From a virus: a DNA stretch of 64,000 nt. Every line of letters starts with the position of its first letter. Position 1 is the stretch's first letter. Below are positions 299 to 46,026 of this stretch, piece by piece. The position numbers and the translations under genes are program-made. The DNA lies in IMG/VR virus record IMGVR_UViG_3300020183_005994, positions 1 to 64,000 of that record; one strand, written 5' to 3'. The notes under the pieces were generated by a model. That model did no database searches. It saw nothing but the letters and a program-made list of their open reading frames with translations, and was not told the origin of the DNA.

Positions 299-1072
299 AT
301 GTCTAACCATATATCTTTTTCTGCTTTAAAGACTTGGAATGATTGTCCGTTTAAATATAAACTAACATATATTGATAGCATACAAAAATATAAACACACT
401 GAATACACCATCTTTGGCACTTCGCTGCATGAAGCTTGCGAAAGAAAGCTGCTAGATAATTCAACAAATGAAGTTGATATTTTTAATAACAAGTTTGCTG
501 AAGAACTTTCCAAAGTTCCAAGCGATGTTAAGTTTGATGACAAATTAATAAATGAAATGAAAGAGCAAGGTAAAACTCTCTCTGTCATGGCGCTTCCGGC
601 GCTACAACAATATTTTGGTAATTTTACTGTGTTGGCAGCAGAAGAAGATATCTATGAAGTTATTAAACAAGTTCCAGATTTAAATTATAATTTTAAAGGA
701 TATATAGATTTAATTATTAAAACTGAAGATGGCAAAGTACATATCATTGATTGGAAAACTTGTGCTTGGGGCTGGGATGCTAAAAAGAAAAGTGATCCAA
801 TGATCACTTACCAGCTAACTTTTTATAAGTATTTCTATGCTCAAAAACATGGTATTGATCCAAAAAACATTGAAACTCACTTTGCTTTATTAAAGCGTAT
901 TGCAAAGAAGGATCAAGTAGAAATATTTCGTGTAACTAGCGGCGATAAAAAAACACAAAATGCATTTAATTTATTGCTAAAAGCATTGTATAGTATAAAT
1001 AAATCTTTTTATCCTAAAAATAGATTAAGTTGTAAATATTGTGAATACAACAATACAAAGGAATGTCCATGA
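299..1072 (+). CDS. PD-(D/E)XK nuclease, Cas4/RecB-like, probable Fe-S cluster
   Basis: This 257-residue protein has the order of motifs of Cas4/RecB-type exonucleases: an N-terminal Tyr/Phe-rich helix with Cys16, FGTSLHE with His44, GYIDLI with Asp137, then IIDWKT with Asp151 and Lys153 (the (D/E)xK motif), and a QLTFYKYF helix. Four cysteines, Cys16 near the start and Cys245, Cys248 and Cys256 at the end, match the split C...CxxC...C layout that binds a 4Fe-4S cluster in Cas4 and AddB. In this fold it should act on DNA ends with Mg2+, for example in recombination or host DNA processing. It is the first gene after a perfect sigma-70 promoter and overlaps the GDP-mannose dehydratase gene by a few bases. 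The exact biological role is not shown by the sequence. Confidence 0.85.
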   Translation: MSNHISFSALKTWNDCPFKYKLTYIDSIQKYKHTEYTIFGTSLHEACERKLLDNSTNEVDIFNNKFAEELSKVPSDVKFDDKLINEMKEQGKTLSVMALPALQQYFGNFTVLAAEEDIYEVIKQVPDLNYNFKGYIDLIIKTEDGKVHIIDWKTCAWGWDAKKKSDPMITYQLTFYKYFYAQKHGIDPKNIETHFALLKRIAKKDQVEIFRVTSGDKKTQNAFNLLLKALYSINKSFYPKNRLSCKYCEYNNTKECP

Positions 1073-2049
1073 AGATCGCAGTAATCACTGGTATTACTGG
1101 ACAAGATGGTAGTTATCTTGCTGAGTTATTATTGTCTAAAAATTATTATGTAATTGGTCTTGTACGCAGAGGTGCTACGGAAGATCAAAAACTGTATAAT
1201 ATACAACATCTGCTAAATAACAGAGATTTGATTATTGAAAATGGTGATTTAACTGATGCATCTTCTATATGGAGATTAGTAAAAAAATATCAACCAGACG
1301 AATTCTATAATTTAGCTGCACAAAGTCACGTTGGTGCATCGTTTACATCACCAGAAAGTACATTAGAAATTAATACTACTGGTGTATTAAATTGTTTAGA
1401 GGCAATTAGAAACTTGTCACCAAAAACAAAATTTTATCAAGCGTCAACAAGTGAAATGTTTGGTGATACAATAGAATGTCCGCAAAATGAATTGACACCG
1501 TTCTCTCCAGTATCGCCATATGCATGTTCTAAAGTTGCTGCACATAACTTGGTAGTTAATTATAGAAAAGCATATAATCTTTTTGCTTGCTCTGGGATTC
1601 TTTTTAATCATGAATCTCCTCGTCGCGGTGAACAATTTGTAACTAGAAAAATAACGAAAGCAGCCGCAAGAATAAAGCTAGGTCTTCAGAAAGAACTTAG
1701 GCTTGGCAATCTAGATACTAAAAGAGATTGGGGATATGCTAAAGAATATGTTGAAGGCATGTGGATGATGCTACAACAAGAAAAGCCAAGCGATTATGTA
1801 TTGGGCACCGGTAAAACAAGAACAATTTTAGATTTTATTAATTGCGTTTCTGAAATTGCTGGTTATAATTTAATGGATAAAGTTATTTTAGATGAAAATC
1901 TGTTAAGACCGAGCGATGTACCATTATTGCTAGCAGATTCTACAAAAGCAAATATAGTTCTTGGGTGGAAGCCAAAGACAGATTTAAAAACATTAGCAAC
2001 AATAATGTATAATTCAGATTATACAAAGGAAAAGAATAATGTCAAATAA
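1069..2049 (+). CDS. gmd: GDP-mannose 4,6-dehydratase
   Basis: Converts GDP-D-mannose to GDP-4-keto-6-deoxy-D-mannose with bound NADP. The protein (326 residues) is a full-length extended short-chain dehydrogenase: TGITGQDGS at the N-terminus is the Gmd nucleotide-binding loop, STSEMFG carries the catalytic Ser/Thr and Glu, SPYACSK is YxxxK, and NHESPRRGEQFVTRKIT is the Gmd family signature. I chose the ATG at 1069 because the AAAGGA at 1057-1062 is correctly spaced from it and abuts the alternative ATG at 1063. It overlaps the nuclease gene upstream and the glycosyltransferase gene downstream (11 bases). Its product could feed the Fcl/RmlD-like reductase at 12574 or be used for another deoxysugar. 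The local base composition is richer in G+C than in most later genes of the island. Confidence 0.92.
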   Translation: MKIAVITGITGQDGSYLAELLLSKNYYVIGLVRRGATEDQKLYNIQHLLNNRDLIIENGDLTDASSIWRLVKKYQPDEFYNLAAQSHVGASFTSPESTLEINTTGVLNCLEAIRNLSPKTKFYQASTSEMFGDTIECPQNELTPFSPVSPYACSKVAAHNLVVNYRKAYNLFACSGILFNHESPRRGEQFVTRKITKAAARIKLGLQKELRLGNLDTKRDWGYAKEYVEGMWMMLQQEKPSDYVLGTGKTRTILDFINCVSEIAGYNLMDKVILDENLLRPSDVPLLLADSTKANIVLGWKPKTDLKTLATIMYNSDYTKEKNNVK

Positions 2050-4511: not shown

Positions 4512-5342
4512 ATGAAAAAAGCTATTCTCTTACAGCCCGGTAAATTAGGTGATCTAATAATAAGTACGCCTATAGCACATTATTATTATAATTTAGGATA
4601 TGAAATTGAGTGGCTTATATTTGATAATTTTAAATCTTTTTTTAGTTCTATACCAAATATAAAAATAAAAACTTTTAATAGTTTATTAAACAATAATTAT
4701 TATACTAATAAAAGATTAAACTTTACAGACGCTAGCAGTAACTCGGCATCATTATGCTTTTTTAAAGAAGCTTATGAATATATAAAAAATAATAAAGAGG
4801 CTAAAATATTAGATATTTGCTGGGGTTTTCCGGGTACTAGTACAAGCAATAACAACTTAAGATTTCTGTTTTATAAACAAAAAAGAAACTGGATTGATAT
4901 GAGGTACCATTTAGCAGAGGTACCATTAAAAGAAAGATGGAATTTTAAATGGAATAGAAATTTAGAAAAAGAAAATAAACTTCTTAAATTTATTAAAGAA
5001 TTTTCTAAAAAAAAATATGGTTCTGAAAAGTTTAGTATTATTCACAATTATGTAGATAATCCTCGCTCCATACAAATGAAAAATCCTATTAATTTATCTT
5101 ATATAAAAGATTATGAACTATATGATTGGTATTTAGTATTATTAGAAGCTGAAGAAATTGCTTGTGTGGATTCTTCTTTGTGTAATTTTGTAGAAGTTTT
5201 ACCAGAGTTAAAAGAAAAGAAAAAATATTATCTGGGAACAGAAGAACCGCATTATTCTGAATATATGAGAAATATTTTATTAAATAATTGGTATGATAGC
5301 AATAATAATCTGATATTATCAGACTATCAAGGTATTTTATGA
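4512..5342 (+). CDS. GT9-like (heptosyltransferase family) glycosyltransferase
   Basis: The start AILLQPGKLGDLIISTPIAH is the N-terminal signature of GT9 transferases, the ADP-heptose:LPS heptosyltransferase family, where the G-x-L/I-GD loop binds near the acceptor. A later segment, AEEIACVDSSLCNFVEVL, corresponds to the C-terminal donor-site helix of the same family. At 276 residues it is shorter than the usual ~320-350, so the acceptor domain may be trimmed. The ATG follows the previous stop directly. The two next genes are heptose-1-phosphate adenylyltransferase and heptose kinase, so an ADP-heptose-like donor is an attractive inference, but GT9-like proteins in phages may use other sugars. 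Confidence 0.7.
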   Translation: MKKAILLQPGKLGDLIISTPIAHYYYNLGYEIEWLIFDNFKSFFSSIPNIKIKTFNSLLNNNYYTNKRLNFTDASSNSASLCFFKEAYEYIKNNKEAKILDICWGFPGTSTSNNNLRFLFYKQKRNWIDMRYHLAEVPLKERWNFKWNRNLEKENKLLKFIKEFSKKKYGSEKFSIIHNYVDNPRSIQMKNPINLSYIKDYELYDWYLVLLEAEEIACVDSSLCNFVEVLPELKEKKKYYLGTEEPHYSEYMRNILLNNWYDSNNNLILSDYQGIL

Positions 5343-5731
5343 AATTAATTTTTACTAATGGTTGTTTTGATGTTTTACACGTTGGACATATAGAATTACT
5401 TAAATTTTCTAAAAATCTTGGAGACAAATTAATTGTTGGTATTAACAGCGATAAAAGTGTTAAAAAATTAAAAGGCAACAACAGGCCAATAAATAATGAA
5501 CAAGATAGAAAAAAAATATTAGAATCTATAAAGTTTGTTGATGAAGTACAAATTTTTGATGATACAACTCCGTTGGAATTAATAAAAAAAATAAAACCGC
5601 ATATTATTGTAAAAGGAGGAGATTATATAAAAGAACAAGTTGTTGGCTTTGGACTTGCTAGTGTTATAATCTTTAATTATTTAGATGGATATTCAACGAC
5701 TAAGACAATTAAAAGTATTAATAATGGGTGA
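5339..5731 (+). CDS. D-glycero-beta-D-manno-heptose 1-phosphate adenylyltransferase (HldE C-terminal domain type)
   Basis: This 130-residue nucleotidyltransferase matches the whole adenylyltransferase domain of HldE/RfaE: TNGCFDVLHVGHIELL contains the HxGH catalytic motif, VGINSDKSVKKLKG and RPINNEQDR follow in the usual order, and IIVKGGDY is the heptose-specific segment that separates it from TagD-like cytidylyltransferases. It should join ATP and heptose-1-phosphate to give ADP-heptose. An AAGG at 5329-5332 precedes the ATG, which overlaps the previous stop. In Escherichia coli this domain is the C-terminal half of HldE, behind the kinase; here it is a free protein and is encoded before the kinase. 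Confidence 0.85.
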   Translation: MKLIFTNGCFDVLHVGHIELLKFSKNLGDKLIVGINSDKSVKKLKGNNRPINNEQDRKKILESIKFVDEVQIFDDTTPLELIKKIKPHIIVKGGDYIKEQVVGFGLASVIIFNYLDGYSTTKTIKSINNG

Positions 5732-6461
5732 TTATTGTACTGATATTTTTTTATATGGTTTTTGTAACAGAATAAGTCCTGAAGCACCAGTACCTGTTTT
5801 TTTGTTTGATCATGAAATAAGAACAGATGGAATGGCTGGAAATGTATATAATAATTTAAAATCTCTTAATGTGAATACTGATTTGCTTGTATCCACTAAG
5901 GATATACAAAAAATAAGATATATAGATTTAAAATCTAAACAACATTTAATTCGTGCCGATTTTGAAAAGCCAGCACCTGAATTAATAATTAATTTTGAAA
6001 CTTTAAAACAATATGATGCAATTATTATATCAGATTACAATAAAGGATCTATTACAGAAAAAGTTTATTCTTTGACTAGACAACTATATGATGGTTTAAT
6101 ATTTGTTGATTCTAAAAAAAATAATTTGTCTATTTTTGATCATGAAAATACAATATTAAAAATTAATGATTTAGAATTTACTAAAGCCAATAAATTACCT
6201 TTAAAATCACCATTAATAGTAACCAAAGGCGATAAGGGTGCCATGTATAATGGTAAAATATATTCTACAAAAAAAGTAGAGGTTTTTGATGTAAGCGGAG
6301 CTGGCGATTCTTTTATGTGCGGATTGGTAGTACAATATCTATTAACTAGAAATATGCCAGAAGCAATCAATTTTGCTAATGTTTGTGCTTCTAACGTAGT
6401 TAAAAAAACAGGAACTGCTATTATTGATTTCCAAGAGGTTATGCATGATATACGTTTTTGA
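5685..6461 (+). CDS. D-glycero-beta-D-manno-heptose-7-phosphate kinase (HldE N-terminal domain type, PfkB family)
   Basis: A ribokinase-fold sugar kinase of 258 residues. The start LKVLIMGDYCTDIF, the next motif RISPEAPVPVF (diagnostic of the HldE/RfaE kinase) and TDGMAGNVYNNL (substrate loop) lead to VSGAGDSF, the PfkB anion hole with catalytic Asp208. It would phosphorylate heptose-7-phosphate at C1. It is shorter than the ~310-330 residues of the HldE kinase domain; parts of the central lid appear reduced. The ATG at 5685 lies inside the adenylyltransferase gene (47-base overlap). A second in-frame ATG at 5724 gives a tighter ATGGGTGA overlap but would remove the first beta strand, so I keep 5685. 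Confidence 0.8.
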   Translation: MDIQRLRQLKVLIMGDYCTDIFLYGFCNRISPEAPVPVFLFDHEIRTDGMAGNVYNNLKSLNVNTDLLVSTKDIQKIRYIDLKSKQHLIRADFEKPAPELIINFETLKQYDAIIISDYNKGSITEKVYSLTRQLYDGLIFVDSKKNNLSIFDHENTILKINDLEFTKANKLPLKSPLIVTKGDKGAMYNGKIYSTKKVEVFDVSGAGDSFMCGLVVQYLLTRNMPEAINFANVCASNVVKKTGTAIIDFQEVMHDIRF

Positions 6462-6765
6462 TATTGATGGTACTATATGTAATAATACAAATGGTAAATA
6501 TGATACTGCTATTCCGTTTGTAGAAAGAATAAAAAAAATTAATAAATTATTTGATGAAGGTAATAATATTATTTTTTTTACTGCCAGAGGAATGAAAACA
6601 TTTAATAATAATCTAGAAAAAGTTTATGAAAAATATTATAACTTTACTTCTGAACAATTAAAAAACTGGAATGTAAAATATCATCAACTAATTTTAGGAA
6701 AACCGTCAGCTGATTTTTATATAGACGATAAAGGAATAAAAGATGAAGACTACTTCCGAACATAG
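6445..6765 (+). CDS. Small HAD-superfamily phosphatase (EcbF/BcbF-like)
   Basis: At 106 residues this is a minimal HAD hydrolase. VFDIDGTIC carries the nucleophile Asp6 and acid/base Asp8, IIFFTARG holds motif II, and the end, GKPSADFYIDDKG, contains the motif IV aspartates. The size and the pattern TARGMKTF...GKPSADFYIDD resemble the capsule-locus phosphatases EcbF/BcbF. In a heptose pathway a HAD enzyme (GmhB) removes the 7-phosphate, so this protein might fill that place, but it lacks the cysteine zinc loop of GmhB as far as I can see. I use the ATG at 6445, which overlaps the kinase stop; a TTG at 6424 would also be in frame. Confidence 0.75.
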   Translation: MIYVFDIDGTICNNTNGKYDTAIPFVERIKKINKLFDEGNNIIFFTARGMKTFNNNLEKVYEKYYNFTSEQLKNWNVKYHQLILGKPSADFYIDDKGIKDEDYFRT

Positions 6766-7102
6766 ATTTGTACCAAAAGGTTGGGGATTTGAAAAATGGA
6801 TTGTAAACAGCGATAAATATTGCGGAAAACTTTTGTATTTTGTTAAAGGAAAAAAATGCTCTTGGCATTATCATAAAATTAAAGATGAAGTATTTTATAT
6901 ACAATCAGGAAAAATTTTAGTTAAATATGGACTTGATGAAGACATAACTAAATGCAGCGAATTAATTTTAGAACGAGGAGATAGTTTTCACGTTAATCCT
7001 AACTTAATACATCAAATGCATGCGCTAGAAGATACAGAATTATTTGAGTTTTCAACACAGCATTTTGATGAAGATTCTTATAGGGTAATAAAAGGTGACT
7101 AA
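6743..7102 (+). CDS. Single-domain cupin protein, probably sugar-related
   Basis: A 119-residue cupin: KCSWHYHKIKDEVFYIQSG is cupin motif 1 (two His and a Glu as metal ligands) and ERGDSFHVNPNLIHQMHAL is motif 2 with the further His. The beginning PKGWGFEKWIV resembles the start of the cupin domain of type II mannose-6-phosphate isomerases/GMP synthases and of sugar-binding cupins in capsule loci. It may isomerise or epimerise a sugar phosphate or nucleotide sugar, or only bind one; sequence alone does not decide. An AAGGA lies 7 bases before the ATG, inside the HAD gene, which it overlaps by 23 bases. Confidence 0.72.
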   Translation: MKTTSEHRFVPKGWGFEKWIVNSDKYCGKLLYFVKGKKCSWHYHKIKDEVFYIQSGKILVKYGLDEDITKCSELILERGDSFHVNPNLIHQMHALEDTELFEFSTQHFDEDSYRVIKGD

Positions 7103-8627: not shown

Positions 8628-9182
8628 ATGTCATTTAATTATATTAAAGAAAAAGAAAAAATGGATAAATTTTTAATTGGTTTGCAAAAATCAAAAAAAT
8701 TTCTTACTATAGGTTGGAGATATGATAGCGGATATTGGTTATTTGATGATTATGTATCAAAATATTTTACTTTTGATACTGATCAAGTATATGTTTTAGA
8801 TGCTTTTTGTAAAAATTTAGAAGATTTTAATAAATATAATGTTACAAAAATATGCTGCGACATAAGAGATTTTGATTATAAAAAATATTCTTTAAATGAT
8901 GTTGCAATAATTTGGGAACATGGACCAGAACATTTAATCAAAAAAGAAGCTGTAAAAGTAATAAATTCAATGAAAAAATATGCTAGCTTTATTGCAATAG
9001 AAACGCCTAGAGGCGAATATCCGCAAGGAGAACTATATGGTAATCCACATGAAAAACATTTAAGTTCTTGGGATTTTGAAGATTATAAAACTTATTTTCC
9101 TGACTTTACTACGTGGCATAATGATGACCATAATCCACCTCTAGGAGTTTTAGGTGCCTTTTGGAGCAAACATGATATTTGA
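8628..9182 (+). CDS. Putative SAM-dependent methyltransferase-like protein
   Basis: This 184-residue protein has the sequence of elements of a class I methyltransferase, though the glycine-rich loop is weak: FLTIGWRYDSGYW, then VYVLDAFC (strand 2 with an acidic residue), ICCDIRDF, DVAIIWEHGPEHL (strand 4 region) and ASFIAIETPRGEYPQG (strand 5). The last part, NPHEKHLSSWDFEDY, is typical of phage and polysaccharide-locus proteins annotated as methyltransferases. It may methylate a sugar; without a clear GxGxG motif, loss of catalysis is possible. It overlaps the next gene slightly. Confidence 0.5.
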   Translation: MSFNYIKEKEKMDKFLIGLQKSKKFLTIGWRYDSGYWLFDDYVSKYFTFDTDQVYVLDAFCKNLEDFNKYNVTKICCDIRDFDYKKYSLNDVAIIWEHGPEHLIKKEAVKVINSMKKYASFIAIETPRGEYPQGELYGNPHEKHLSSWDFEDYKTYFPDFTTWHNDDHNPPLGVLGAFWSKHDI

Positions 9183-9969
9183 TTGTATGATGTTTTTTAA
9201 TGAAATTGATTTATTAAAAATAAGACTTGAACAACATGATTCTTTTGTAGATAAATTTATTATTATTGAAGCAGATTCTACACATTCTGGAATAAAAAAA
9301 GAATATATTTTAGAAAAACATTTCAAAGAATTTGAAAAGTTTAAAAATAAAATTATTTATGAAAAAATATCTTTTAAAGATATAAATAAGTTTAATATTG
9401 TTTCTTGGAACAATTCTTATAATATAGCGGCTAATAGAGAAATATGGGGTAATGAAAATTTTCAAAGAAATTATTGTTTAATAACATTAAAAAATTTAAA
9501 TGCTTCGGATAATGATATAATTATATCATCAGATTTGGATGAAATAATAGATCATACAACAATGAATAATAGTATAAATTTACTAAATCATTTTGAAATT
9601 ATTAAATGTAGACAAAAACATTATGCATATAAATTAAATTTATATTGTGGTAATGATACGGCTGGTCCAAAAATTTTAAAATATTCTATTTTTAAACAAA
9701 TAGATCCTAGTCTTCTAAGAGAAAAAGATGTTGGTATAGAAATAAATGGTGGCTGGCATTTTAGTTTTCTGTCAGACACCGAGGAAAACGTTTATAAAAA
9801 ATATATTAGTTTCTCACACAGTTTTCAAAATACTGATGTTACAAATGGTAATAAAGGTGTAGAAAAATTACGTAAGGATATGATAAAAGAAAAAGTGAAA
9901 ATTGATAGTTCATATCCAAAATATATTATTGATAATTTACAATATTTTAAAAAATATATTGAGGAGTAA
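9172..9969 (+). CDS. GT17-family glycosyltransferase (beta-1,4-GlcNAc transferase-like)
   Basis: The start FDCMMFFNEIDLLKIRLEQH, followed by VDKFIIIEADSTHSG, is the hallmark of family GT17 (relatives of MGAT3), and IIISSDLDEIIDH supplies the acidic metal-binding cluster. Length is 265 residues from the ATG at 9172; a GTG at 9154 is in frame, but the family begins at the chosen ATG. GT17 members transfer N-acetylglucosamine in eukaryotes, but in bacterial and phage loci the donor is generally unknown. The gene overlaps the methyltransferase-like gene before it and precedes another methyltransferase with a strong GAGGAG site. Confidence 0.8.
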   Translation: MIFDCMMFFNEIDLLKIRLEQHDSFVDKFIIIEADSTHSGIKKEYILEKHFKEFEKFKNKIIYEKISFKDINKFNIVSWNNSYNIAANREIWGNENFQRNYCLITLKNLNASDNDIIISSDLDEIIDHTTMNNSINLLNHFEIIKCRQKHYAYKLNLYCGNDTAGPKILKYSIFKQIDPSLLREKDVGIEINGGWHFSFLSDTEENVYKKYISFSHSFQNTDVTNGNKGVEKLRKDMIKEKVKIDSSYPKYIIDNLQYFKKYIEE

Positions 9970-10537: not shown

Positions 10538-11485
10538 ATGAAAAAAATTGTTTATGTTACTGGTTGCTTAGGTTTTATCGGTTCACATGTAACTAAAAAA
10601 TGTCTTGAAAATGGATGGTATGTTATAGGAGTAGATAAAATTACTTATGCTGCTAACGACCACTTACTTAAAAAATTTAATACATATAAAAACTTTAAAT
10701 TTGAAAAAAAAGATATAAATGATATTATTTTTTTACATGATTGTGATTATGTTATAAACACCGCTGCTGAAACACATGTAGACAATTCAATTGTGGATAG
10801 TTCAGAGTTTATAAAATCAAATATTAACGGTGTGCATAATCTTTTAAAATTAATACAAAATTTTAGAGGAACTACAAAACCTATTTTATTACATTTTAGT
10901 ACTGATGAGGTATATGGGGACTCTGGTAATTCAGCGTTTAAAGAAACGGATTTATTATGTCCCAGCAATCCTTATTCTGCTACAAAAGCTGCTGCTGATA
11001 TGCTAATTTTAGCTTGGCACAGAACGCATAACGTACCTTATGTTATAGTCCGTCCAAGTAATAATTATGGTATTTATCAACATGTAGAAAAATTAATACC
11101 AAAATCTTGTAAATATTTACATTTAGGTAAAAAAATTCCTTTACATCAAGCAGGACAACCCAAAAGAACATGGCTGCATGTCGAAGATACAGCTGATGCG
11201 ATTATACAATTAATAAATATTAATGCTATTAATGAAATTTATAACATTGGTGGCAATTTAGAACAAAAAAATATTATAACTGTTAATAAAGTGATAGATG
11301 CTTATTATAATAAATCTGTAAATTATGACGATTATATAGATTTAAATTTTAAACGAGTTGGTCAAGACTTAAAATATCAAATTGATGACACAAAACTTAA
11401 ATCTATTGGCTGGAAAAACAAAAAAATATTTGATGAAGAAATTGTTAAAATAGTTTCTTACTATAAGGATAACTTTGTATGGTAG
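10538..11485 (+). CDS. NDP-glucose 4,6-dehydratase, RmlB-like
   Basis: An extended short-chain dehydrogenase of 315 residues. VTGCLGFIGSH binds NAD; AAETHVDNSI and HFSTDEVYGD are RmlB signatures, the latter carrying the catalytic Thr-Asp-Glu; NPYSATKAAAD contains YxxxK; RPSNNYGIYQHVEKLIP and RTWLHVEDTADAI complete the family pattern. It should turn an NDP-glucose (most likely dTDP-glucose) into the 4-keto-6-deoxy sugar. Compared with bacterial RmlB (~340-360) it is somewhat short. Together with gmd this gives the phage two different routes to 4-keto-6-deoxy nucleotide sugars. It overlaps the transketolase N-half gene by 7 bases. Confidence 0.88.
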   Translation: MKKIVYVTGCLGFIGSHVTKKCLENGWYVIGVDKITYAANDHLLKKFNTYKNFKFEKKDINDIIFLHDCDYVINTAAETHVDNSIVDSSEFIKSNINGVHNLLKLIQNFRGTTKPILLHFSTDEVYGDSGNSAFKETDLLCPSNPYSATKAAADMLILAWHRTHNVPYVIVRPSNNYGIYQHVEKLIPKSCKYLHLGKKIPLHQAGQPKRTWLHVEDTADAIIQLININAINEIYNIGGNLEQKNIITVNKVIDAYYNKSVNYDDYIDLNFKRVGQDLKYQIDDTKLKSIGWKNKKIFDEEIVKIVSYYKDNFVW

Positions 11486-12096
11486 ATGAAAAATTAAAAA
11501 AAAGACTTTTAGAATTATGTTATAAAAACAAGTTACATCACCTTGGTAGTTATTTTTCATCTTTAAACATTATTGATCAAATTTATTCAAAGATGTCCCA
11601 AGAAGATATATTTATTTTATCAAACGGTCATGCAGTTGCTGCTTTATATGTAGTATTAGAAAAATATTTTGGTTTTGACGCTCAATATTTACTTGATAAA
11701 CACGGAGAACATCCAAAATTAGATGAAAAACATAAAATTTATTGTTCTACCGGTAGTTTAGGAATGGGTATTTTAGTAGCTGTTGGTAGAGCGATGGCTA
11801 ATAAAAATAGAAATGTTTATTGTTTAATCTCTGACGGAGAATCGGCGGAAGGATGTGTATGGGAAGCTTTAAGGTTTACAAAAGAAAATAATTTAAATAA
11901 TTTAAAAATATTTGTTAATGCAAATGGATATTGTGCATATGATATAGTTGATATAGAATATTTAGAAAAAAGAATAAAATCATTTAATGAAAATGTTATA
12001 ATTTGTAAAACTCATGTTGAGCATTTTAATTTTTTAAAAGGGATTGATGCACACTATTATTGTATGAGTGAAAAGGATTATGAGGAAAACAAATAA
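11479..12096 (+). CDS. Transketolase-like protein, N-terminal (pyrophosphate-binding) half
   Basis: This 205-residue protein is the TPP pyrophosphate domain of a split transketolase: HHLGSYFSSLNIIDQIY, then LSNGHAVAALYVVLE and STGSLGMGILVAVGRAMA follow the canonical order, and SDGESAEGCVWEAL (Asp119, Glu121) with NANG (Asn147, Asn149) is the Mg/TPP motif. Bacterial split transketolases have N-halves of about 270-280 residues, so this one is distinctly shortened. The catalytic partner half is the next gene, joined by a TAATG overlap. A complete enzyme would move two-carbon units between sugars, possibly supplying sedoheptulose-7-phosphate for the heptose genes, or acting on a keto sugar. Confidence 0.8.
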   Translation: MVDEKLKKRLLELCYKNKLHHLGSYFSSLNIIDQIYSKMSQEDIFILSNGHAVAALYVVLEKYFGFDAQYLLDKHGEHPKLDEKHKIYCSTGSLGMGILVAVGRAMANKNRNVYCLISDGESAEGCVWEALRFTKENNLNNLKIFVNANGYCAYDIVDIEYLEKRIKSFNENVIICKTHVEHFNFLKGIDAHYYCMSEKDYEENK

Positions 12097-12572
12097 TGAG
12101 AAAAACATTTGCTAATCTTCTGTATAGAGAAATGGAAAAAAATAAAGATATTTATTTATTAAGCGGCGATCTCGGTTATAGATTATGGGATAATATAAAA
12201 AAAGATTTTCCTGATAGATTTATTAATCCCGGTTCGGCAGAGCAATTAATGGTAGGCATGGCTGTTGGTTTGGCATTAGAAGGAAAAATACCTGTAGTCT
12301 ATTCTATAACTCCGTTTCTATTATATAGACCATTTGAAATTATAAGAAATTATATAAATTATGAAAAAATATGTGTTAAATTAGTTGGTGGTGGGCGTGG
12401 AAAAGATTACGATAAGCTTGGTTATACTCATTGGGCCGAAGAAGACAAACAAATTATGAGCGTTTTTAATAAAATAACCGTTAAGCATCCTGATACAACT
12501 GTTGAGTTAGAAACAATATTTTTTGATTTTTTATACAATAAAGATCCTTTTTATTTAAATTTAAAGAAATAG
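12096..12572 (+). CDS. Transketolase-like protein, C-terminal (pyrimidine-binding) half
   Basis: This 158-residue protein holds only the pyrimidine domain. PGSAEQLMVGMAVGLALEGK contains the catalytic glutamate (Glu49) that activates TPP, followed by VVYSITPFLLYRPFEIIRN and KLVGGGRGKDYDKLGYTHW, whose His belongs to the substrate site. Normal C-halves are about 310 residues because they include a third domain; this protein ends after the pyrimidine domain, so the third domain is missing. The ATG overlaps the stop of the N-half (TAATG), which suggests coupled translation and a heterotetramer. Confidence 0.8.
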   Translation: MRKTFANLLYREMEKNKDIYLLSGDLGYRLWDNIKKDFPDRFINPGSAEQLMVGMAVGLALEGKIPVVYSITPFLLYRPFEIIRNYINYEKICVKLVGGGRGKDYDKLGYTHWAEEDKQIMSVFNKITVKHPDTTVELETIFFDFLYNKDPFYLNLKK

Positions 12573-12573
12573 T

Positions 12574-13434
12574 ATGAACATTTGGTTAACTACAAAAAAT
12601 GGTTTTCTTGGCAATGAATTAACTAAACTATTTTGTGCAGATAATTCTAATTTATTTTTGTCTTCTAGAAATGAAGTTAACTTATTAAATATTAATGATG
12701 TAAATAATTATATAAAGAAAAATAAAATAGATATTATTTTGCATAATGCCGTAAAAGGCGGAAGAAGAATAAAAAATGATGATTATCAAACATTTTATGA
12801 AAATATTTTAATGTTTGAAAATATTGCTTCGAATTTTAATAAAGTAAAAAAAATTATTAATTTTGATAGTGCCGCTTCCTTTGATAGAAGAAGAGATATA
12901 AATAATTTTAAAGAAAATGAATTAGGTGTTTCAATACCAATTGATTATTATGGCCTTTCTAAAATGAACATAGCCTTAAGAACAAGAAATTATAATAATA
13001 TTTATAATTTAAGAATTTTTAATTGTTTCGGTATTGAAGAAACGCCAGAGCGTATGATTCGTTCTAATATTTTAAAATATATTAACAATAATAATTTAAT
13101 TGTTCACAAGAACAAATTTATGGATTTTTTCTTCGTTGAAGATCTTTATACATTATTAAAATATTATATTAATAATAATGTATTTATTAAAGATATTAAT
13201 ATGGTTTATAATAAAAAATATACTTTAAAAGATATTTGTTTATTAATTAATGATATTAGCACAAAAAAAAGTGATATAATAATCGAAGATGAAATATTAG
13301 ATAATTCTTATACTGGTAATAGTGAATTAATAGATAGTTTAAATTTAAAATTTTATGGTTTAGAATACGGTATAAAAAAAATGTATAATTATTATAATAA
13401 ATTAAGTAATGGAGAAAAAAATGAAACTTTCTGA
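12574..13434 (+). CDS. NAD-dependent sugar reductase/epimerase, Fcl/RmlD-like
   Basis: A 286-residue extended short-chain dehydrogenase. The nucleotide loop is slightly altered (TTKNGFLGNEL). LLNINDVNNYIKKNKIDIIL then HNAVKGGRRIKNDDY parallels the GDP-fucose synthase (Fcl/WcaG) sequence around HLAAKVGG, INFDSAASFD supplies the catalytic Ser, and DYYGLSKMNIAL is YxxxK. It could reduce or epimerise the 4-keto product of Gmd or of the RmlB-like enzyme, closing a pathway to a fucose-, rhamnose- or 6-deoxytalose-like sugar. It is extremely rich in A+T (a hand-counted line gives 10 G+C of 60). The gene ends inside the following small gene. Confidence 0.75.
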   Translation: MNIWLTTKNGFLGNELTKLFCADNSNLFLSSRNEVNLLNINDVNNYIKKNKIDIILHNAVKGGRRIKNDDYQTFYENILMFENIASNFNKVKKIINFDSAASFDRRRDINNFKENELGVSIPIDYYGLSKMNIALRTRNYNNIYNLRIFNCFGIEETPERMIRSNILKYINNNNLIVHKNKFMDFFFVEDLYTLLKYYINNNVFIKDINMVYNKKYTLKDICLLINDISTKKSDIIIEDEILDNSYTGNSELIDSLNLKFYGLEYGIKKMYNYYNKLSNGEKNETF

Positions 13435-15001: not shown

Positions 15002-15293
15002 TAAAAAAACTCTTGAAGAATATATAATAGATAGCACAAAAAATATTGAAGATGATAGAGCGGTAACCACTAAGCTTCTTGAAGATTTAATATTAACTAT
15101 GGATAAGCATAAAGAAGAAAAGTATACACATAAAAACTTTGGTGAAATAGCAGCAATGTATTTAGAAACTTTACAAAGATCAAACGAACAGCTAGTTAAA
15201 ATAGCATCTTTAGTACAAAGAAGCGAGGGTGTTAAGGAAGGTTTATCAAAAAACGAAAAAGATAATTTATTTGATTTAATAAAGGAGGGATAA
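14994..15293 (+). CDS. Hypothetical phage protein (99 residues)
   Basis: A small, mostly helical, charged protein with no recognised motif. The segment YTHKNFGEIAAMYLETLQRS is the most characteristic; I recall similar stretches in marine T4-like phages near the late sigma and baseplate genes, but no function. An AAGGA at 14980-14984 is 9 bases before the ATG at 14994 and only 3 before an alternative ATG at 14988, so I prefer 14994. The frame overlaps the sigma gene end by 8 bases and is followed at once by a strong ribosome-binding site for the spike/peptidase gene. Confidence 0.6.
   Translation: MSNKKTLEEYIIDSTKNIEDDRAVTTKLLEDLILTMDKHKEEKYTHKNFGEIAAMYLETLQRSNEQLVKIASLVQRSEGVKEGLSKNEKDNLFDLIKEG
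15282..15288 (+). promoter_or_regulatory. Strong Shine-Dalgarno site for a TTG-start gene
   Basis: AAGGAGG at 15282-15288 lies 9 bases before TTG at 15298-15300. There is no ATG or GTG nearby in frame, and the protein begins with the sensible MSGQTKFFPS. The site decides that TTG is the start. Confidence 0.8.
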
Positions 15294-15297
15294 GCAG

Positions 15298-16647
15298 TTG
15301 TCTGGACAAACAAAATTTTTTCCTTCAGTTAATAATCCTGCTAGATATGATCGCATTGGACAAGTACTAGATATAAAAAACACTACCTTACAAGGTACTT
15401 TAAGAAATTTATTAAATGATTATTATTCTAAAAACGTTTTAAAAGGCGTTAATGGCTTTCATGGTACTGTTTTAAGAAAAGAATTATCATTTAATAACTT
15501 TGATTATTCACCTAAGAATTATACTGATTTAGCATTGGGTTTAGCACCTGTTCGATATAAAGTTTGGATTGATGGCGCTTTATGCCAAATATATGGTACG
15601 AAAAGACCATCTGATGACGAACCTGCTGGTAGGACATTAATTAATTGCTTACCAGATTGTACATTAAGCCCTCAATCATTTACAGATCCTATTGCTGGAG
15701 TTGAAGTTGGAGATCAAGTGTGGGTTACGTTTGACAATACAGAAACTTATAGTAATCCCGTAATAGCATATAAAATAACCCAAACACCTGATGGATTTGG
15801 TGCTTATGGAGGTAATATAGCCATCACTCCTTCAAGCGCTTTTGATGGTGTACAATTTGTTCCCGGCTCTAGCGAAGATGAAGGCGTTAACCCAACATTA
15901 ACCGAACAAGAAAAAGCTCTTAATTATGTAATAGTTGATTATCCGCTAAACTTTATAGGCTTTCCTAATATTCCAGCATCAGCAAACGTACCAGCGCCAG
16001 CTAATTGTCACAATGAAGCGGTTTATTTAGCTTTATCGCCAAACTATAATTGGCGTCAATGTTTTAGTTGGACCAAGAAAAAAATGAGAATTGTGCAAGG
16101 ACAGCATAAATTAACTGCTAGAGCGGCAGAATCTTGTTTAGCGCTACTAAAATATTATGAAGAAACGAATAAAAATTCTTTAAATAAAAAAATTTTATTA
16201 TCAAGCAGTTATAGGTTAATAGAAACACAGATAACTTTATTAAAAGAAAGATTCACTTGGAATACAGAAAAAAAAATTTTAGAACTTAATTCTGCTGGTT
16301 TAAAAAGTGGGTATGCTGGTAATTGTTTTAGTAAAAATGCAATGAGTGGCGGATCTCATGTTAAGGGACAAGCAATTGATATTTGGATGGGTAATACTAT
16401 GAGAAATGGTGCAATAGTTAATTCTAACACTCTTACGCATAAACAAAAATTTGGAACTGAAATTTTTAAATGGATGAATGAGAATGCTAGAAAATTTAAT
16501 TTTTATCCTACAGCAGCATATATAAGCTCCACACCAGAATCATGGCATTGGGAATATGTAGAACCGGGTAGACAAGTTAAAGAAAAATTTAGTGTCGACA
16601 CTATAAGAAATTACGCTTTAAAAACTGCTATAGACGCAGAAAAATAA
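15298..16647 (+). CDS. Baseplate spike/hub protein with C-terminal M15 peptidase domain
   Basis: A two-part protein of 449 residues, starting at TTG behind a strong AAGGAGG. The N-terminal ~200 residues look like the OB-fold region of T4 gp5-like spike proteins: RIGQVLDI, VRYKVWIDGALCQIYG and VEVGDQVWVTFDN are beta-rich with the typical VGDxVWVxF strand. The C-terminal ~200 residues are an M15 (VanY/D-Ala-D-Ala carboxypeptidase-like) zinc peptidase: SHVKGQAID gives His354 and Asp361, and ESWHWE gives Glu414 and His417. It should cut peptidoglycan cross-links during injection, replacing the lysozyme of T4 gp5. It heads the baseplate run. Confidence 0.82.
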   Translation: MSGQTKFFPSVNNPARYDRIGQVLDIKNTTLQGTLRNLLNDYYSKNVLKGVNGFHGTVLRKELSFNNFDYSPKNYTDLALGLAPVRYKVWIDGALCQIYGTKRPSDDEPAGRTLINCLPDCTLSPQSFTDPIAGVEVGDQVWVTFDNTETYSNPVIAYKITQTPDGFGAYGGNIAITPSSAFDGVQFVPGSSEDEGVNPTLTEQEKALNYVIVDYPLNFIGFPNIPASANVPAPANCHNEAVYLALSPNYNWRQCFSWTKKKMRIVQGQHKLTARAAESCLALLKYYEETNKNSLNKKILLSSSYRLIETQITLLKERFTWNTEKKILELNSAGLKSGYAGNCFSKNAMSGGSHVKGQAIDIWMGNTMRNGAIVNSNTLTHKQKFGTEIFKWMNENARKFNFYPTAAYISSTPESWHWEYVEPGRQVKEKFSVDTIRNYALKTAIDAEK

Positions 16648-16649
16648 TC

Positions 16650-17597
16650 ATGACCAATCCATTAGAATATAAAAATAAAAAATATAAAGATAATCCCAAT
16701 GCTGAAAAGGGCTATGGTAATAGTGTTTTACATGATCCAACTAGTGATTGGAAATATAACAGCACACCAGCGGAAAAGGTTATTTTTGGTCAAAATAACA
16801 CTTGGATTATATTAGGTAGAGATCGCCCTTCTGGCTCTTTAAGTGGTTATGGCGGTAAAGGTGATTTAAGGGCGGGCTGTATTGATATAGTCGCAGGAAG
16901 ATTATCAGCGCTAGATGCTGAAGCCTTATCTCCAAAGCTAGAAGAATCGGGTCTTGGAGAAGGTTTAAAAGCTAATTCTAATTTTGGGGCAGATGCTTCA
17001 AGGATATATATATCTCAGAAGGCAGATATAGATGAATATTTTAAACTAGCTAATGGGTATACAGGAAAAAGTGTTGCTAGATCTGCGATTGGCATTAAGT
17101 CCGATGATGTAAGAATTATAGCTAGAAATACTTTAAAACTAATTACTAGAACAGATGATATTCTTTCAAATAAAGAATCAGCTGATATCAAAGTTGGTGT
17201 TCAATTAATAGGCGACAATAATGCAGAATTTAAAGATATGCAAGCTATTCCCAAAGGAGATAATTTAAGAATTGCATTAATGGAAATTGGTGATCGAATG
17301 CAAGAAATATTAGCTGCAATAACCTATTTAATGGACATACAAAAAGAAATGAATGATGCATTAAGCAATCATACGCATTTATCTGGTTATTTTAAAGTTA
17401 TGACTTCGCCAGCTATGGTTAATGGAGATCTTACAAAACCTTTACCATTTATTGGTAAATCTTGTAATTTAAGAATGTATAGAGATGTAGAGCAGCAAAT
17501 AAATATGATTGCTTCAAATATAGAAGGTATGTCATTAAGGTTTTATATTGCCTCTTCTAAAGAATATATTAACAGCAAATATCATAAATTAAATTAA
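16650..17597 (+). CDS. Putative baseplate spike-associated protein
   Basis: This 315-residue protein follows the spike/peptidase gene with only two bases between. The centre has IGIKSDDVRIIARNTLKLIT, which reads like the beta-helix strands of gp5C/VgrG spikes (repeated IxxxSDxxxIxA pattern), and the N-terminal half is glycine-rich (SGSLSGYGGKGDLRAGCIDI). The second half is helical, with LAAITYLMDIQKEMNDALSN, suggesting a trimeric coiled segment. A role as a second spike subunit or gp27-like plug is plausible but not proven. No enzyme motif is present. Confidence 0.55.
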   Translation: MTNPLEYKNKKYKDNPNAEKGYGNSVLHDPTSDWKYNSTPAEKVIFGQNNTWIILGRDRPSGSLSGYGGKGDLRAGCIDIVAGRLSALDAEALSPKLEESGLGEGLKANSNFGADASRIYISQKADIDEYFKLANGYTGKSVARSAIGIKSDDVRIIARNTLKLITRTDDILSNKESADIKVGVQLIGDNNAEFKDMQAIPKGDNLRIALMEIGDRMQEILAAITYLMDIQKEMNDALSNHTHLSGYFKVMTSPAMVNGDLTKPLPFIGKSCNLRMYRDVEQQINMIASNIEGMSLRFYIASSKEYINSKYHKLN

Positions 17598-23861: not shown

Positions 23862-25661
23862 ATGGCTAAAAAAATAGTGCCTATTAAATATACTAGTAGA
23901 GATTTTGATTCAATTAAAGCAGATTTAGTTGAACATGCGAAAAGATATTATGATAACACTTATAAAGATTTTAATGAAGCTTCTTTTGGTTCTTTGATGT
24001 TAGATACCGTAGCTTATGTTGGAGATGTATTATCTTTTTATTTAGATTATCAAGCAAATGAATGTTTTTTAGATACCGCTTCTGAATTTAATAACATAAT
24101 AAAAATTGGTAGACAAGTTGGATATAAATTTAGTAATTCTGTGTCGTCTACCGGCATAGCCTCTTTTTATATATCTATTCCTGCTAGCAGTGGTAATCCA
24201 AATATGGACTATGCTCCGATATTAAAAAGAAATAGTATTTTTGGAACAAACAATGGTGGTAGATTTATTCTTACCGAGGATGTACGTTTTGATAATCCGG
24301 CAAATGAAATAAGAGTTTTAGAAACCGATCCAGTTACTGGCGAACCTATATTTTTTGGTATTAAGGCTTATGGACCGGTTATCTCTGGAATAATACAAAC
24401 CGAAACAATACCAGTAGGAGAATTTACTAGATTTCCCACATTTACTTTAGCACAAGCTGATATCGTTGAAATAATTTCTATTTTTGATTTAGAAGGCAAT
24501 GAATATTATGAAGTAGATTATTTATCACAAAATGTTATTTACAAAAGCGTTACAAATAGAAATGCCACAGAAGCTCTTTTAGCAAAAGAAATATTAAAAC
24601 CATTTATAGTTCCAAGAAGATTTGTTGTAGATAGAAATTATAGAACTACTACGTTACAATTTGGCGCTAGTTCAAATGTTACCATACCTGATAACTATTC
24701 AATGATTACAGAACCAACTAATGCAATATTAAATCTTCATGGTAAAGAATATATAAGTTCTGATAGTTTTGATCCAACAAGATTAATTAATAGTGATAAA
24801 TTTGGTATTGCTCCTTCACAAACTAGTTTAATAGTTACATATAGATTTAACAATGTTTCTACTGGAGTAAACTTTGGTGTAGACACTCTTACTAATGTTG
24901 TTGATCCAATATTTGAATTTCCGAAAGAGCAAAACTTATTTGGTACGCTACTTCAAACTGTTAAAAGCAGCCTAGAGATTAATAATGAATCGGCATTATT
25001 AGGAGATGTTACGGTATTAAATTCTGAAGAATTAAAAAGAAGAATAGCTAATTGTTTTGCTTCACAAAATAGGGCTGTAACAGAGCGCGATTATCGCTCT
25101 TTGGTTTATTCTATGCCAAGTAAATTTGGAAGCGTTAAAAGAATAAATGTTATAAAAGATCAAAATTCTATTAGAAGAAATTTAAATTTATATGTTTTAT
25201 GTGAAGATAGCAATGGATTTTTAACAGCACCAAATCAAACTGTCAAAGATAATATAAAAACTTGGCTTGAACGTCACAAAATGATAAATGATTCTATTGA
25301 TATACTTGATGGTAAAGTAGTTAATTACTCTGTTCGTTTTACGGCTGTTGGAGATAACAATAGATCTAAATATGACATATTAACTGACGCTATTAATCAA
25401 ATAAGAATAGATTTACAATTAATACCAGATTTTGGAGAGCCGTTTTTAATAACAAACATCTTTAATAGTTTAAAAAAAGTTAATGGCTTATTAGACGTTA
25501 TATCAGTACGAATAGAAGAAAGAGTTGGCTCTACATATTCTAATGCAAGTTTTAATTTTAAAGAAAATACATCCCCAGACGGTAGATACATAAATGTTCC
25601 AGATAATGTAGTTATGGAGCTAAAATTTCCTGATTCCGATATCAAAGGAACCATACTATAA
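23862..25661 (+). CDS. Baseplate wedge protein, gp6/J-like
   Basis: A 599-residue protein whose start, IKYTSRDFDSIKADLVEHAK, then FGSLMLDTVAYVGDVLSFYL and FLDTASEFNNIIKIGRQVGY, is the typical opening of gp6/baseplate J proteins of T4-like phages. The middle contains TERDYRSLVYSMPSKFGSVK, the conserved AVTxxDYxxL element of the same family. In the T4 baseplate, gp6 forms the inner ring dimers that hold the wedges together. It sits directly after gp25, as in other myoviruses, and its stop overlaps the next start (TAATG). Confidence 0.9.
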   Translation: MAKKIVPIKYTSRDFDSIKADLVEHAKRYYDNTYKDFNEASFGSLMLDTVAYVGDVLSFYLDYQANECFLDTASEFNNIIKIGRQVGYKFSNSVSSTGIASFYISIPASSGNPNMDYAPILKRNSIFGTNNGGRFILTEDVRFDNPANEIRVLETDPVTGEPIFFGIKAYGPVISGIIQTETIPVGEFTRFPTFTLAQADIVEIISIFDLEGNEYYEVDYLSQNVIYKSVTNRNATEALLAKEILKPFIVPRRFVVDRNYRTTTLQFGASSNVTIPDNYSMITEPTNAILNLHGKEYISSDSFDPTRLINSDKFGIAPSQTSLIVTYRFNNVSTGVNFGVDTLTNVVDPIFEFPKEQNLFGTLLQTVKSSLEINNESALLGDVTVLNSEELKRRIANCFASQNRAVTERDYRSLVYSMPSKFGSVKRINVIKDQNSIRRNLNLYVLCEDSNGFLTAPNQTVKDNIKTWLERHKMINDSIDILDGKVVNYSVRFTAVGDNNRSKYDILTDAINQIRIDLQLIPDFGEPFLITNIFNSLKKVNGLLDVISVRIEERVGSTYSNASFNFKENTSPDGRYINVPDNVVMELKFPDSDIKGTIL

Positions 25662-44838: not shown

Positions 44839-46026
44839 ATGGCTAATAATATAGAAATTAAAGAAGGTACTGGCGGTGGTATATATCTTAAAACTACCGA
44901 ATTAACATCTAATGTTCATTCTCCACATCACATAATTCAAGAAATAAGTGGTTCTAATATATCGTCCGTTGTTAGTGCTTTAAATGAAATTTCTGCATCC
45001 GTAAAAACAGGCGGTTCTGTTCAAATAGTTACATCTAGCCAAACAAGTCCTGTGTGGGTAACGGCATCGCTTGCTAATCCAATACCAGTGACGGGATCTA
45101 TAAATGTTGATGTGCAAATAAGTGATTTAATTACTGTAACATCTAGTCTAACAAATCCAGTTGGTATTACCGGTTCTACGACTATTAATAATCTTGCTTA
45201 CACAACATACAATGCCTCTACTTATACTTCAAATGTCAATGCTTTTACATTAGTTGGGTCAAGTAGTAATAGAGCGGATGTTGATTCTTTAGGTTCTCAA
45301 AAAGTAGGTATTTTTGGTGCTACTAACAATAGAGTAGAAGTAGATATATCTGGTTCACAAAAAGTCGGTCTTTTTGGTTCTAATAATAATAGAGCAGTTA
45401 TAGATACTCTTGGATCTTTACAGGTTGGCGTCTTTAGTAGCGCTGGCAATAGACAAACTATTGATTCTTCTGGTGCTGCACAGATAACTGGTTCTGCTAC
45501 AATAAACAATGTTTCATTTACGTCTTATGCTGGCACTACACACTCATCAAATGTAAACAATATATCTTTAGTTGGACCAAATAGCTACAGAGCAGTAATA
45601 AGTACGTCTGGTGCATTAAGTGTTACTTCTTCCAATGCTAATCCTATATTTACAACTCCATCTTTACCAACTGGTACAATTAGAAAAGTTTTTAGTACAT
45701 CTGATTCTACAATTGATTTTAACGATATAACAAATCTAGGCTCATTTCAAATATCTGCAAATGATACTAGTAGAAAAGGCTTATTAATCACTAATCCAAC
45801 TTCTAATCGGTTATTCATTTCAATAGCCACACAAGCGTCAAGCAGCACAGAGGGAAGAAATGGATTTAATTTACCAAATAATAATAATGATCCTGTTAGT
45901 TATTCATTTATAATTTATCCTTCTGGAAGTTATTTTGCAGATGTAACTAATGTTACGCAATTTTATGGTGGATTTTTTGTAAGCTCTTCTAATCAATTAA
46001 AGGTTCTTGTAACGGAAACATATTAA
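44839..46026 (+). CDS. Repeat-containing fibre-like virion protein
   Basis: This 395-residue protein is almost pure beta, Ser/Thr/Asn-rich, with internal duplication. Four successive 20-residue units of type xNRxxxDxxGSQKVGxFG occupy residues 141-220. They are flanked by two copies of a longer module, STTINNLAYTTYNASTYTSN and SATINNVSFTSYAGTTHSSN, each ending in xLVGxxSxRA. Such regular short units usually form a stacked beta fibre. The final ~120 residues form a separate domain (SNRLFISIATQASSSTEGRN, IIYPSGSYFADV), possibly receptor-binding. No enzyme motif was seen. GGAA precedes the ATG. Confidence 0.65.
   Translation: MANNIEIKEGTGGGIYLKTTELTSNVHSPHHIIQEISGSNISSVVSALNEISASVKTGGSVQIVTSSQTSPVWVTASLANPIPVTGSINVDVQISDLITVTSSLTNPVGITGSTTINNLAYTTYNASTYTSNVNAFTLVGSSSNRADVDSLGSQKVGIFGATNNRVEVDISGSQKVGLFGSNNNRAVIDTLGSLQVGVFSSAGNRQTIDSSGAAQITGSATINNVSFTSYAGTTHSSNVNNISLVGPNSYRAVISTSGALSVTSSNANPIFTTPSLPTGTIRKVFSTSDSTIDFNDITNLGSFQISANDTSRKGLLITNPTSNRLFISIATQASSSTEGRNGFNLPNNNNDPVSYSFIIYPSGSYFADVTNVTQFYGGFFVSSSNQLKVLVTETY
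45259..45498 (+). repeat. Four tandem 60-base in-frame repeats
   Basis: Units 45259-45318, 45319-45378, 45379-45438 and 45439-45498 each encode 20 residues with the core NR-x3-D-x2-G-[SA]-x-x-[VI]; the first three share VGxF at the end and the fourth is degenerate. Nucleotide identity between units is reduced by third-position changes, so this is an old, selected duplication, not a recent slippage. Confidence 0.75.

Follow-up and report, generated by a model that had tools for sequence, protein, structure and literature searches.

The window considered here comprises 64,000 nucleotides of viral DNA (positions 1 to 64,000 of IMG/VR record IMGVR_UViG_3300020183_005994) and is part of a record of 71,361 bases (G000), itself perhaps a fragment. 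A first-pass annotation had recognised at 4512-6765 a nearly complete ADP-heptose module made of a GT9-like transferase, an adenylyltransferase, a kinase and a HAD phosphatase. The four open reading frames (ORFs) are confirmed at these coordinates, on a single strand and with overlapping ends. The gene content of the module stands but its right boundary does not, as an overlapping cupin gene at 6743-7102, missed earlier, belongs to it as well. The locus is composed of the following genes:

4512..5342, + strand: GT9-like transferase of the GT-B type, 276 residues, candidate heptosyltransferase (Foldseek, GT9 structure 3tov as top match)
5339..5731, + strand: nucleotidyltransferase of the HldE domain II/HldC type, 130 residues (TIGR02199, phrog_7878, 5x9q)
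5685..6461, + strand: short heptose-7-phosphate kinase of the HldE domain I type, 258 residues (TIGR02198, phrog_8133 at 1e-75, 4e84)
6445..6765, + strand: minimal HAD phosphatase, 106 residues, proposed GmhB stand-in (TIGR01689 EcbF/BcbF, 52 bits)
6743..7102, + strand: cupin, 119 residues, proposed sedoheptulose-7-phosphate isomerase replacing GmhA (phrog_7851; overlaps the HAD gene)

Positions 5339-7102 probably form a four-gene cassette for the synthesis of nucleotide-activated D-glycero-D-manno-heptose from sedoheptulose 7-phosphate. The cupin would convert sedoheptulose 7-phosphate to heptose 7-phosphate in GmhA's stead, the short kinase would phosphorylate it to the 1,7-bisphosphate, the HAD protein would remove the 7-phosphate in the stead of GmhB and the nucleotidyltransferase would attach the nucleotide, most likely AMP. 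The GT9-like neighbour would likely transfer the heptose to a glycan directed by the phage, at a surface or on the virion. What was observed is which genes are present and in what order, their fusions, their co-occurrence, the exclusivity with GmhA, the conservation of active-site residues and the fold class; the catalytic activities, the identity of the heptose and those of the nucleotide and acceptor are predicted from it. The cassette resembles the bacterial ADP-L-glycero-D-manno-heptose pathway (GmhA, HldE, GmhB, HldD) by its HldE-type kinase and nucleotidyltransferase and covers the same chemical steps. It differs by a cupin instead of the SIS-fold GmhA, by a minimal EcbF-like HAD devoid of zinc motif and by a shortened kinase. 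HldD is lacking in the core cassette, with a short-chain dehydrogenase/reductase (SDR) nearby in P-SSM2-like phages.

The nucleotidyltransferase is aligned end to end by TIGR02199 (model positions 12-143 of 144) with 161 bits, below the NCBIfam cut-off of 181.5, against 57 bits for the glycerol-3-phosphate cytidylyltransferase model. Among solved structures, 5x9q comes closest at 95 bits; its deposit names a putative cytidylyltransferase, which we take to be HldC. The glycerol-3-phosphate cytidylyltransferase 1coz reaches 50 bits. Kinship with the latter enzymes had been named in advance as the case against an HldE-type adenylyltransferase; both comparisons came out the opposite way and this identity is rejected. 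No Arg precedes the STT motif, so the protein is not of the STTR5 form tied to nucleoside triphosphate promiscuity. The kinase matches TIGR02198 with 149 bits over three stretches, below the cut-off of 345, and is about 60 residues short. Its closest solved relative is the heptose-7-phosphate kinase 4e84. Though short, it retains the catalytic GAGD and NxxE motifs together with RxSPEAPVPV, a set largely conserved among 18 phage homologues (R29, P32, P35, P37, N161, E164, G205-D208), in agreement with its initial identification as an HldE-type kinase.

For the HAD gene, the ATG at 6445 is preferable to the TTG at 6424. The motif residues D6, D8, T46, K86 and D95 are invariant among homologues. 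The GmhB zinc motif (CxH..CxC / CxH..CxCRKP) is absent, GmhB models are unmatched and the EcbF-BcbF model alone matches. Judged from its sequence, the protein is EcbF/BcbF-like and not GmhB by family, although it occupies the GmhB slot. Public cyanophage records name this HAD 'phosphoheptose isomerase' and list the cupin as 'cysteine dioxygenase', but the sequences fit neither label. The first is rejected since the protein carries HAD catalytic motifs, the second since no such NCBIfam or Pfam model matched and the Glu ligand is conserved. In phage contig L003 (2167-2883), a HAD of the phage family forms a fusion with a cytidylyltransferase-like domain; GmhA and an HddA-like kinase stand directly before it.

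The GT9-like protein matched no Pfam, NCBIfam or PHROG family and a sequence-profile search of the PDB was likewise empty. Its AlphaFold model (predicted local distance difference test, pLDDT, 78) has the GT9 structure 3tov as Foldseek top match, with an E-value of 1.4e-4 but a modest template modelling (TM) score of 0.47, and WaaC (6dfe/2h1h) and WaaF (1psw) among further matches. The protein is therefore described as GT-B/GT9-like and as a candidate member of the GT9 family.

The cupin and the place of GmhA

Heptose synthesis is considered to be committed at the step of GmhA, an enzyme that serves as a drug target. The first-pass annotation had described it as the only missing enzyme. A SIS fold GmhA is indeed absent: neither the 71,361-base record nor any of six complete cyanophages with the kinase gave a match to SIS_2/GmhA (PF13580), and each of the six encodes exactly one member of the cupin family. 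The step itself does not appear unfilled, the apparently missing GmhA being probably the overlapping cupin. A nucleoside diphosphate (NDP)-heptose pathway remains the best reading of the module, without a GmhB by family and probably without a gap at GmhA.

Conversion of sedoheptulose 7-phosphate to D-glycero-D-manno-heptose 7-phosphate has the same C2 stereochemistry as that of fructose to mannose, which is shared by lyxose/mannose isomerases and GmhA. The cupin profile is best aligned, over its full length, to the D-lyxose isomerase 2y0o, and the nearest full-length solved relatives are D-lyxose/D-mannose isomerases (2y0o, 7nzo), with which the catalytic Lys-x-Glu is shared. Like these metal-dependent cupins (2y0o YdaE, 7nzo-7nzq TsLI), it conserves the elements N-x3-YC-x-K, H-x-H, K-x-E, H and E-x-S; unlike them, it has 119 residues against about 175-200, with 21-23% identity, and its proposed substrate is a phosphorylated, seven-carbon sugar. 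The metal site is of the 3-His/1-Glu type, accompanied by K47, D48 and E49. Across 115 cupins K47, H44 and H90 never vary, and the set H42, H44, E49, H90 and K47 is nearly invariant. These five residues correspond to H75, H77, E88, H143 and K86 of TsLI, in which the first four are the metal ligands and K86 steadies the enediol (PMC8378251).

The predicted structure has a pLDDT of 96.3. The top Foldseek ranks went to CapF cupin domains, to KdgF and to the D-lyxose isomerases 7nzq (with D-mannose), 7nzp (with fructose) and 2y0o, with 7nzq and 2y0o among the first five. Two side observations concern the wider family. In L010, tandem cupins (8840-9256 and 9269-9640) are found, the first of which no longer has the Glu and one His of the metal site and is possibly a degenerate partner. 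In L042, the C-terminal part of a NeuB-like sialic acid synthase (15277-16803) is a cupin domain of the wider family.

Occurrence in phages and cells

Profile searches for the kinase and the cupin were performed on 50,697 phage records. The kinase was matched in 33: besides 31 phages (isolates or single-cell records), these comprise a Salmonella contig and a remote contig of faecal origin. The cupin is present in 35 phage records: all 31 phage kinase carriers, two records of Bellamy, SynMITS9220M01 and AG-345-E15. In the last four, an HddA-type kinase directly precedes the cupin and an HddC-like nucleotidyltransferase follows it; the kinase assignment relies on direct scoring for two of them (NF049969, 279-287 bits) and on a home-made model for AG-345-E15. 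Among 80 viral contigs recruited by the cupin, 58 carry a PfkB kinase and four others an HddA-like kinase in the stretch retrieved.

The order nucleotidyltransferase-kinase-HAD-cupin corresponds to T4-GC 304-307 of cyanomyoviruses. It is contiguous in P-SSM2 and S-CAM3; in S-T4, P-TIM68, S-SSM7 and S-SM2 the four genes are clustered with insertions or in an altered order. The window phage shares its genes with these six cyanomyoviruses (T4-GC 304-308); it is myovirus-like and distantly related to them, its kinase standing at the 40% level. Cyanophage-type cassettes were also found in five contigs (L030, L031, L032, L033 and L035) binned in Planctomycetaceae, Euryarchaeota, Thaumarchaeota or Rhodobacteraceae metagenome-assembled genomes (MAGs); these are probably phage contigs.

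The HddA/HddC branch illustrates where the cupin stands. Bellamy and contig L147 resemble this branch by an HddA-type kinase, an HddC-like transferase and a GDP-mannose 4,6-dehydratase (GMD)-like enzyme, and depart from it by a cupin at the place expected for GmhA. The sole phage contigs with GmhA are L002 and L003 (TIGR00441, 72 bits), from which the cupin is absent. The order in L003 is HddA-like kinase, GmhA and a HAD::nucleotidyltransferase fusion, and GmhA likewise follows the HddA-like kinase in the cellular contigs L191, L192 and L194. In L147, L151, L170 and Bellamy it is the cupin that follows this kinase, i.e. in the slot of GmhA in L003; L164 has the order kinase-HAD-cupin.

In cells, carriers of the HldE kinase were sampled in one class of DPANN archaea (18/141 genomes) and one class of candidate phyla radiation (CPR) bacteria (9/145), together 27 genomes, and the cupin profile was scanned once across genome contigs. 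Operons with the order cupin-HldD-HldE kinase-GmhB-HldC were found in Woesearchaeota, Nanoarchaeota and one Nomurabacteria MAG, and the DPANN operons contain no GmhA. In the woesearchaeal L054, GmhB is fused to HldC, HldD (278 bits against 274.6) and the kinase (394 against 345) both score above their NCBIfam cut-offs, and GmhA is the one step without homologue. The cupin is fused to the N-terminus of the kinase in L052, L077, G231 and G038, such fusions occurring in Peregrinibacteria and Peribacteria, to its C-terminus in the DPANN genomes G081 and G097, and to HldD in L088. A kinase-linked or fused cupin is present in 8 of the 27 genomes, none of which has a kinase-adjacent GmhA; conversely, 10 of the other 19 have a kinase-adjacent GmhA and none of these ten a kinase-linked cupin (Fisher p 0.012). 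On the cupin tree, at least ten changes of the heptose-kinase link are required on well-supported branches, even though the short sequences leave many forks open. The association of cupin and heptose kinase is therefore recurrent. As a separate observation, the GmhA and HldE kinase genes of G242, G268 and G318 contain many in-frame TGA codons, fitting a Gracilibacteria-type recoding of TGA.

Neighbouring genes and the host glycan

Additional genes of the window are related to the glycan context:

1063..2049, + strand: GMD-like enzyme, in the context of the glycan cluster (TIGR01472, 404 bits against a cut-off of 415)
11479..12096, + strand: transketolase N-terminal, thiamine diphosphate domain protein (PF00456)
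12096..12572, + strand: transketolase pyrimidine-binding domain protein (PF02779)
12574..13434, + strand: SDR (NAD-dependent epimerase/reductase) accompanying the transketolase pair (PF01370)

The first-pass annotation had linked the split transketolase to sedoheptulose 7-phosphate. The pair and the SDR lie 4.4 kb downstream of the cassette in the window. In seven contigs, some of them near-duplicates (L030-L032, L115/L116, L154 and L159), the same trio stands directly upstream of the nucleotidyltransferase-kinase-HAD-cupin genes, which bears out the link to the cassette. A supply of sedoheptulose 7-phosphate by the pair is a guess, since no C-terminal transketolase domain was found in it. Just past the glycan cluster, the ORF at 15298-16647 ends like a VanY/M15 peptidase (SGGSHVKGQAIDIWMG...WHWEYV) and had no PHROG match. 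When ten structural ORFs were compared with PHROG, the one at 23862-25661 matched baseplate wedge phrog_219 and little else emerged; the phage is a divergent myovirus. The structural ORF at 44839-46026, neighbour of the baseplate wedge ORF, had no match among isolate phages.

The lipopolysaccharide (LPS) of the marine Synechococcus strains WH8102 and CC9311 was reported to be heptose-free (PMC4515613). Phages isolated on WH8102 nevertheless carry the cassette. As to the earlier proposal that the phage increases or changes the addition of heptose to LPS, boosting is thus unsupported, and construction of a new glycan by the cassette fits better.

Alternative explanations and implications

It appears reasonably likely that the cupin is a sedoheptulose-7-phosphate isomerase unrelated to GmhA and that phages, DPANN archaea and CPR bacteria widely use it as the first enzyme on the way to NDP-heptose. 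It would serve both the ADP-beta (HldE) and the GDP-alpha (HddA/HddC) branch, and phages would thus encode a complete, self-sufficient pathway in about 1.8 kb. Several observations weigh against this proposal. Neither the phage kinase nor the nucleotidyltransferase reaches its curated cut-off, and the HAD does not belong to GmhB. As the fold of the cupin is generic, with about equal scores for the CapF and KdgF cupins, fold alone is indecisive. Family members from Dependentiae, Planctomycetota and some archaea keep the same residues without nearby heptose genes, hence the family is not heptose-only. The genes around such non-heptose cupins in Dependentiae, Planctomycetota and Terriglobia revealed no clear alternative pathway. 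The 31/31 count stems from records many of which are near-identical and overstates independence; neither this count nor the exclusivity test is corrected for shared ancestry. Both cupin and GmhA are missing from five of the 18 DPANN kinase carriers; many of the genomes are MAGs and incomplete. Furthermore, G167 and G147 have an unlinked cupin only, G031 has a fused cupin plus an unlinked SIS protein, and a SIS protein is encoded elsewhere in 5/27 cupin-kinase genomes.

These points leave room for other explanations. NDP-heptose could be made with isomerisation by the host GmhA, the cupin acting at a later or side step such as epimerisation, sugar binding or regulation. The generic fold, the top rank of CapF, whose cupin domain is part of an enzyme for capsule sugars, and the existence of family members without heptose genes would agree with such a role. 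It is rendered unlikely by the occurrence of the cupin at GmhA's place beside HldE-type as well as HddA-type kinases, which are unrelated contexts, and by its fusion with the kinase, by DPANN operons that are complete save for GmhA, and by the fact that a heptose-free host need not possess GmhA. Alternatively, the cupin could be a phosphomannose isomerase supplying GDP-mannose to the GMD-like enzyme, and be part of the cassette for sugar supply in general. A GMD-like gene is found in the window and in 20/80 cupin contigs, and the cupin is weakly related to the phosphomannose isomerase 7zvm. In addition, G310 and G258 (L219, L220), which have a kinase-adjacent GmhA, encode a separate single-domain cupin of a distant subgroup beside a ManC-like mannose-1-phosphate guanylyltransferase; these two cupins are probably phosphomannose isomerases. 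However, they form a separate, long-branched pair on the tree, the cupin is linked to heptose kinases in 35/35 phage records, and no ManC lies between the genes of the DPANN operons, which makes this role highly improbable for the window cupin. Least probable of all is the use of another sugar phosphate by the HldE-like pair, with a product other than heptose. The sub-threshold scores, the shortened kinase and the EcbF-like HAD would fit such an activity. In contrast, the heptose-7-phosphate kinase and 5x9q are the closest solved relatives of the pair, well ahead of the rest, the same cupin accompanies full-length HldE, GmhB and HldD and also HddA, and viral heptose enzymes were reported active in the summaries cited below.

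Viral and archaeal NDP-heptose enzymes were already recognised and assayed (Tang et al., Science 2024, via the summaries PMC11573728 and PMC11461863). According to these summaries the phosphatase is absent in viruses, and they do not mention a cupin isomerase, whereas the cassette has both a HAD and a cupin. A search of the literature library for a cupin in the role of GmhA found nothing relevant. Phage ADP-heptose enzymes as such are therefore known, and the genes of the cassette have long been known but mislabelled. The novelty would reside in a known pathway of which two steps are taken by unrelated enzymes. If sedoheptulose-7-phosphate isomerisation by the cupin is true, searches for GmhA or GmhB homologues overlook NDP-heptose makers among phages, archaea and CPR bacteria, and two wrong labels copied through cyanophage records would be corrected. 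It would also account for the way in which phages whose hosts lack heptose could assemble a heptose glycan, starting from an intermediate of the pentose-phosphate pathway. Overall, the use of heptose by viruses and archaea would become a testable question through four small proteins.

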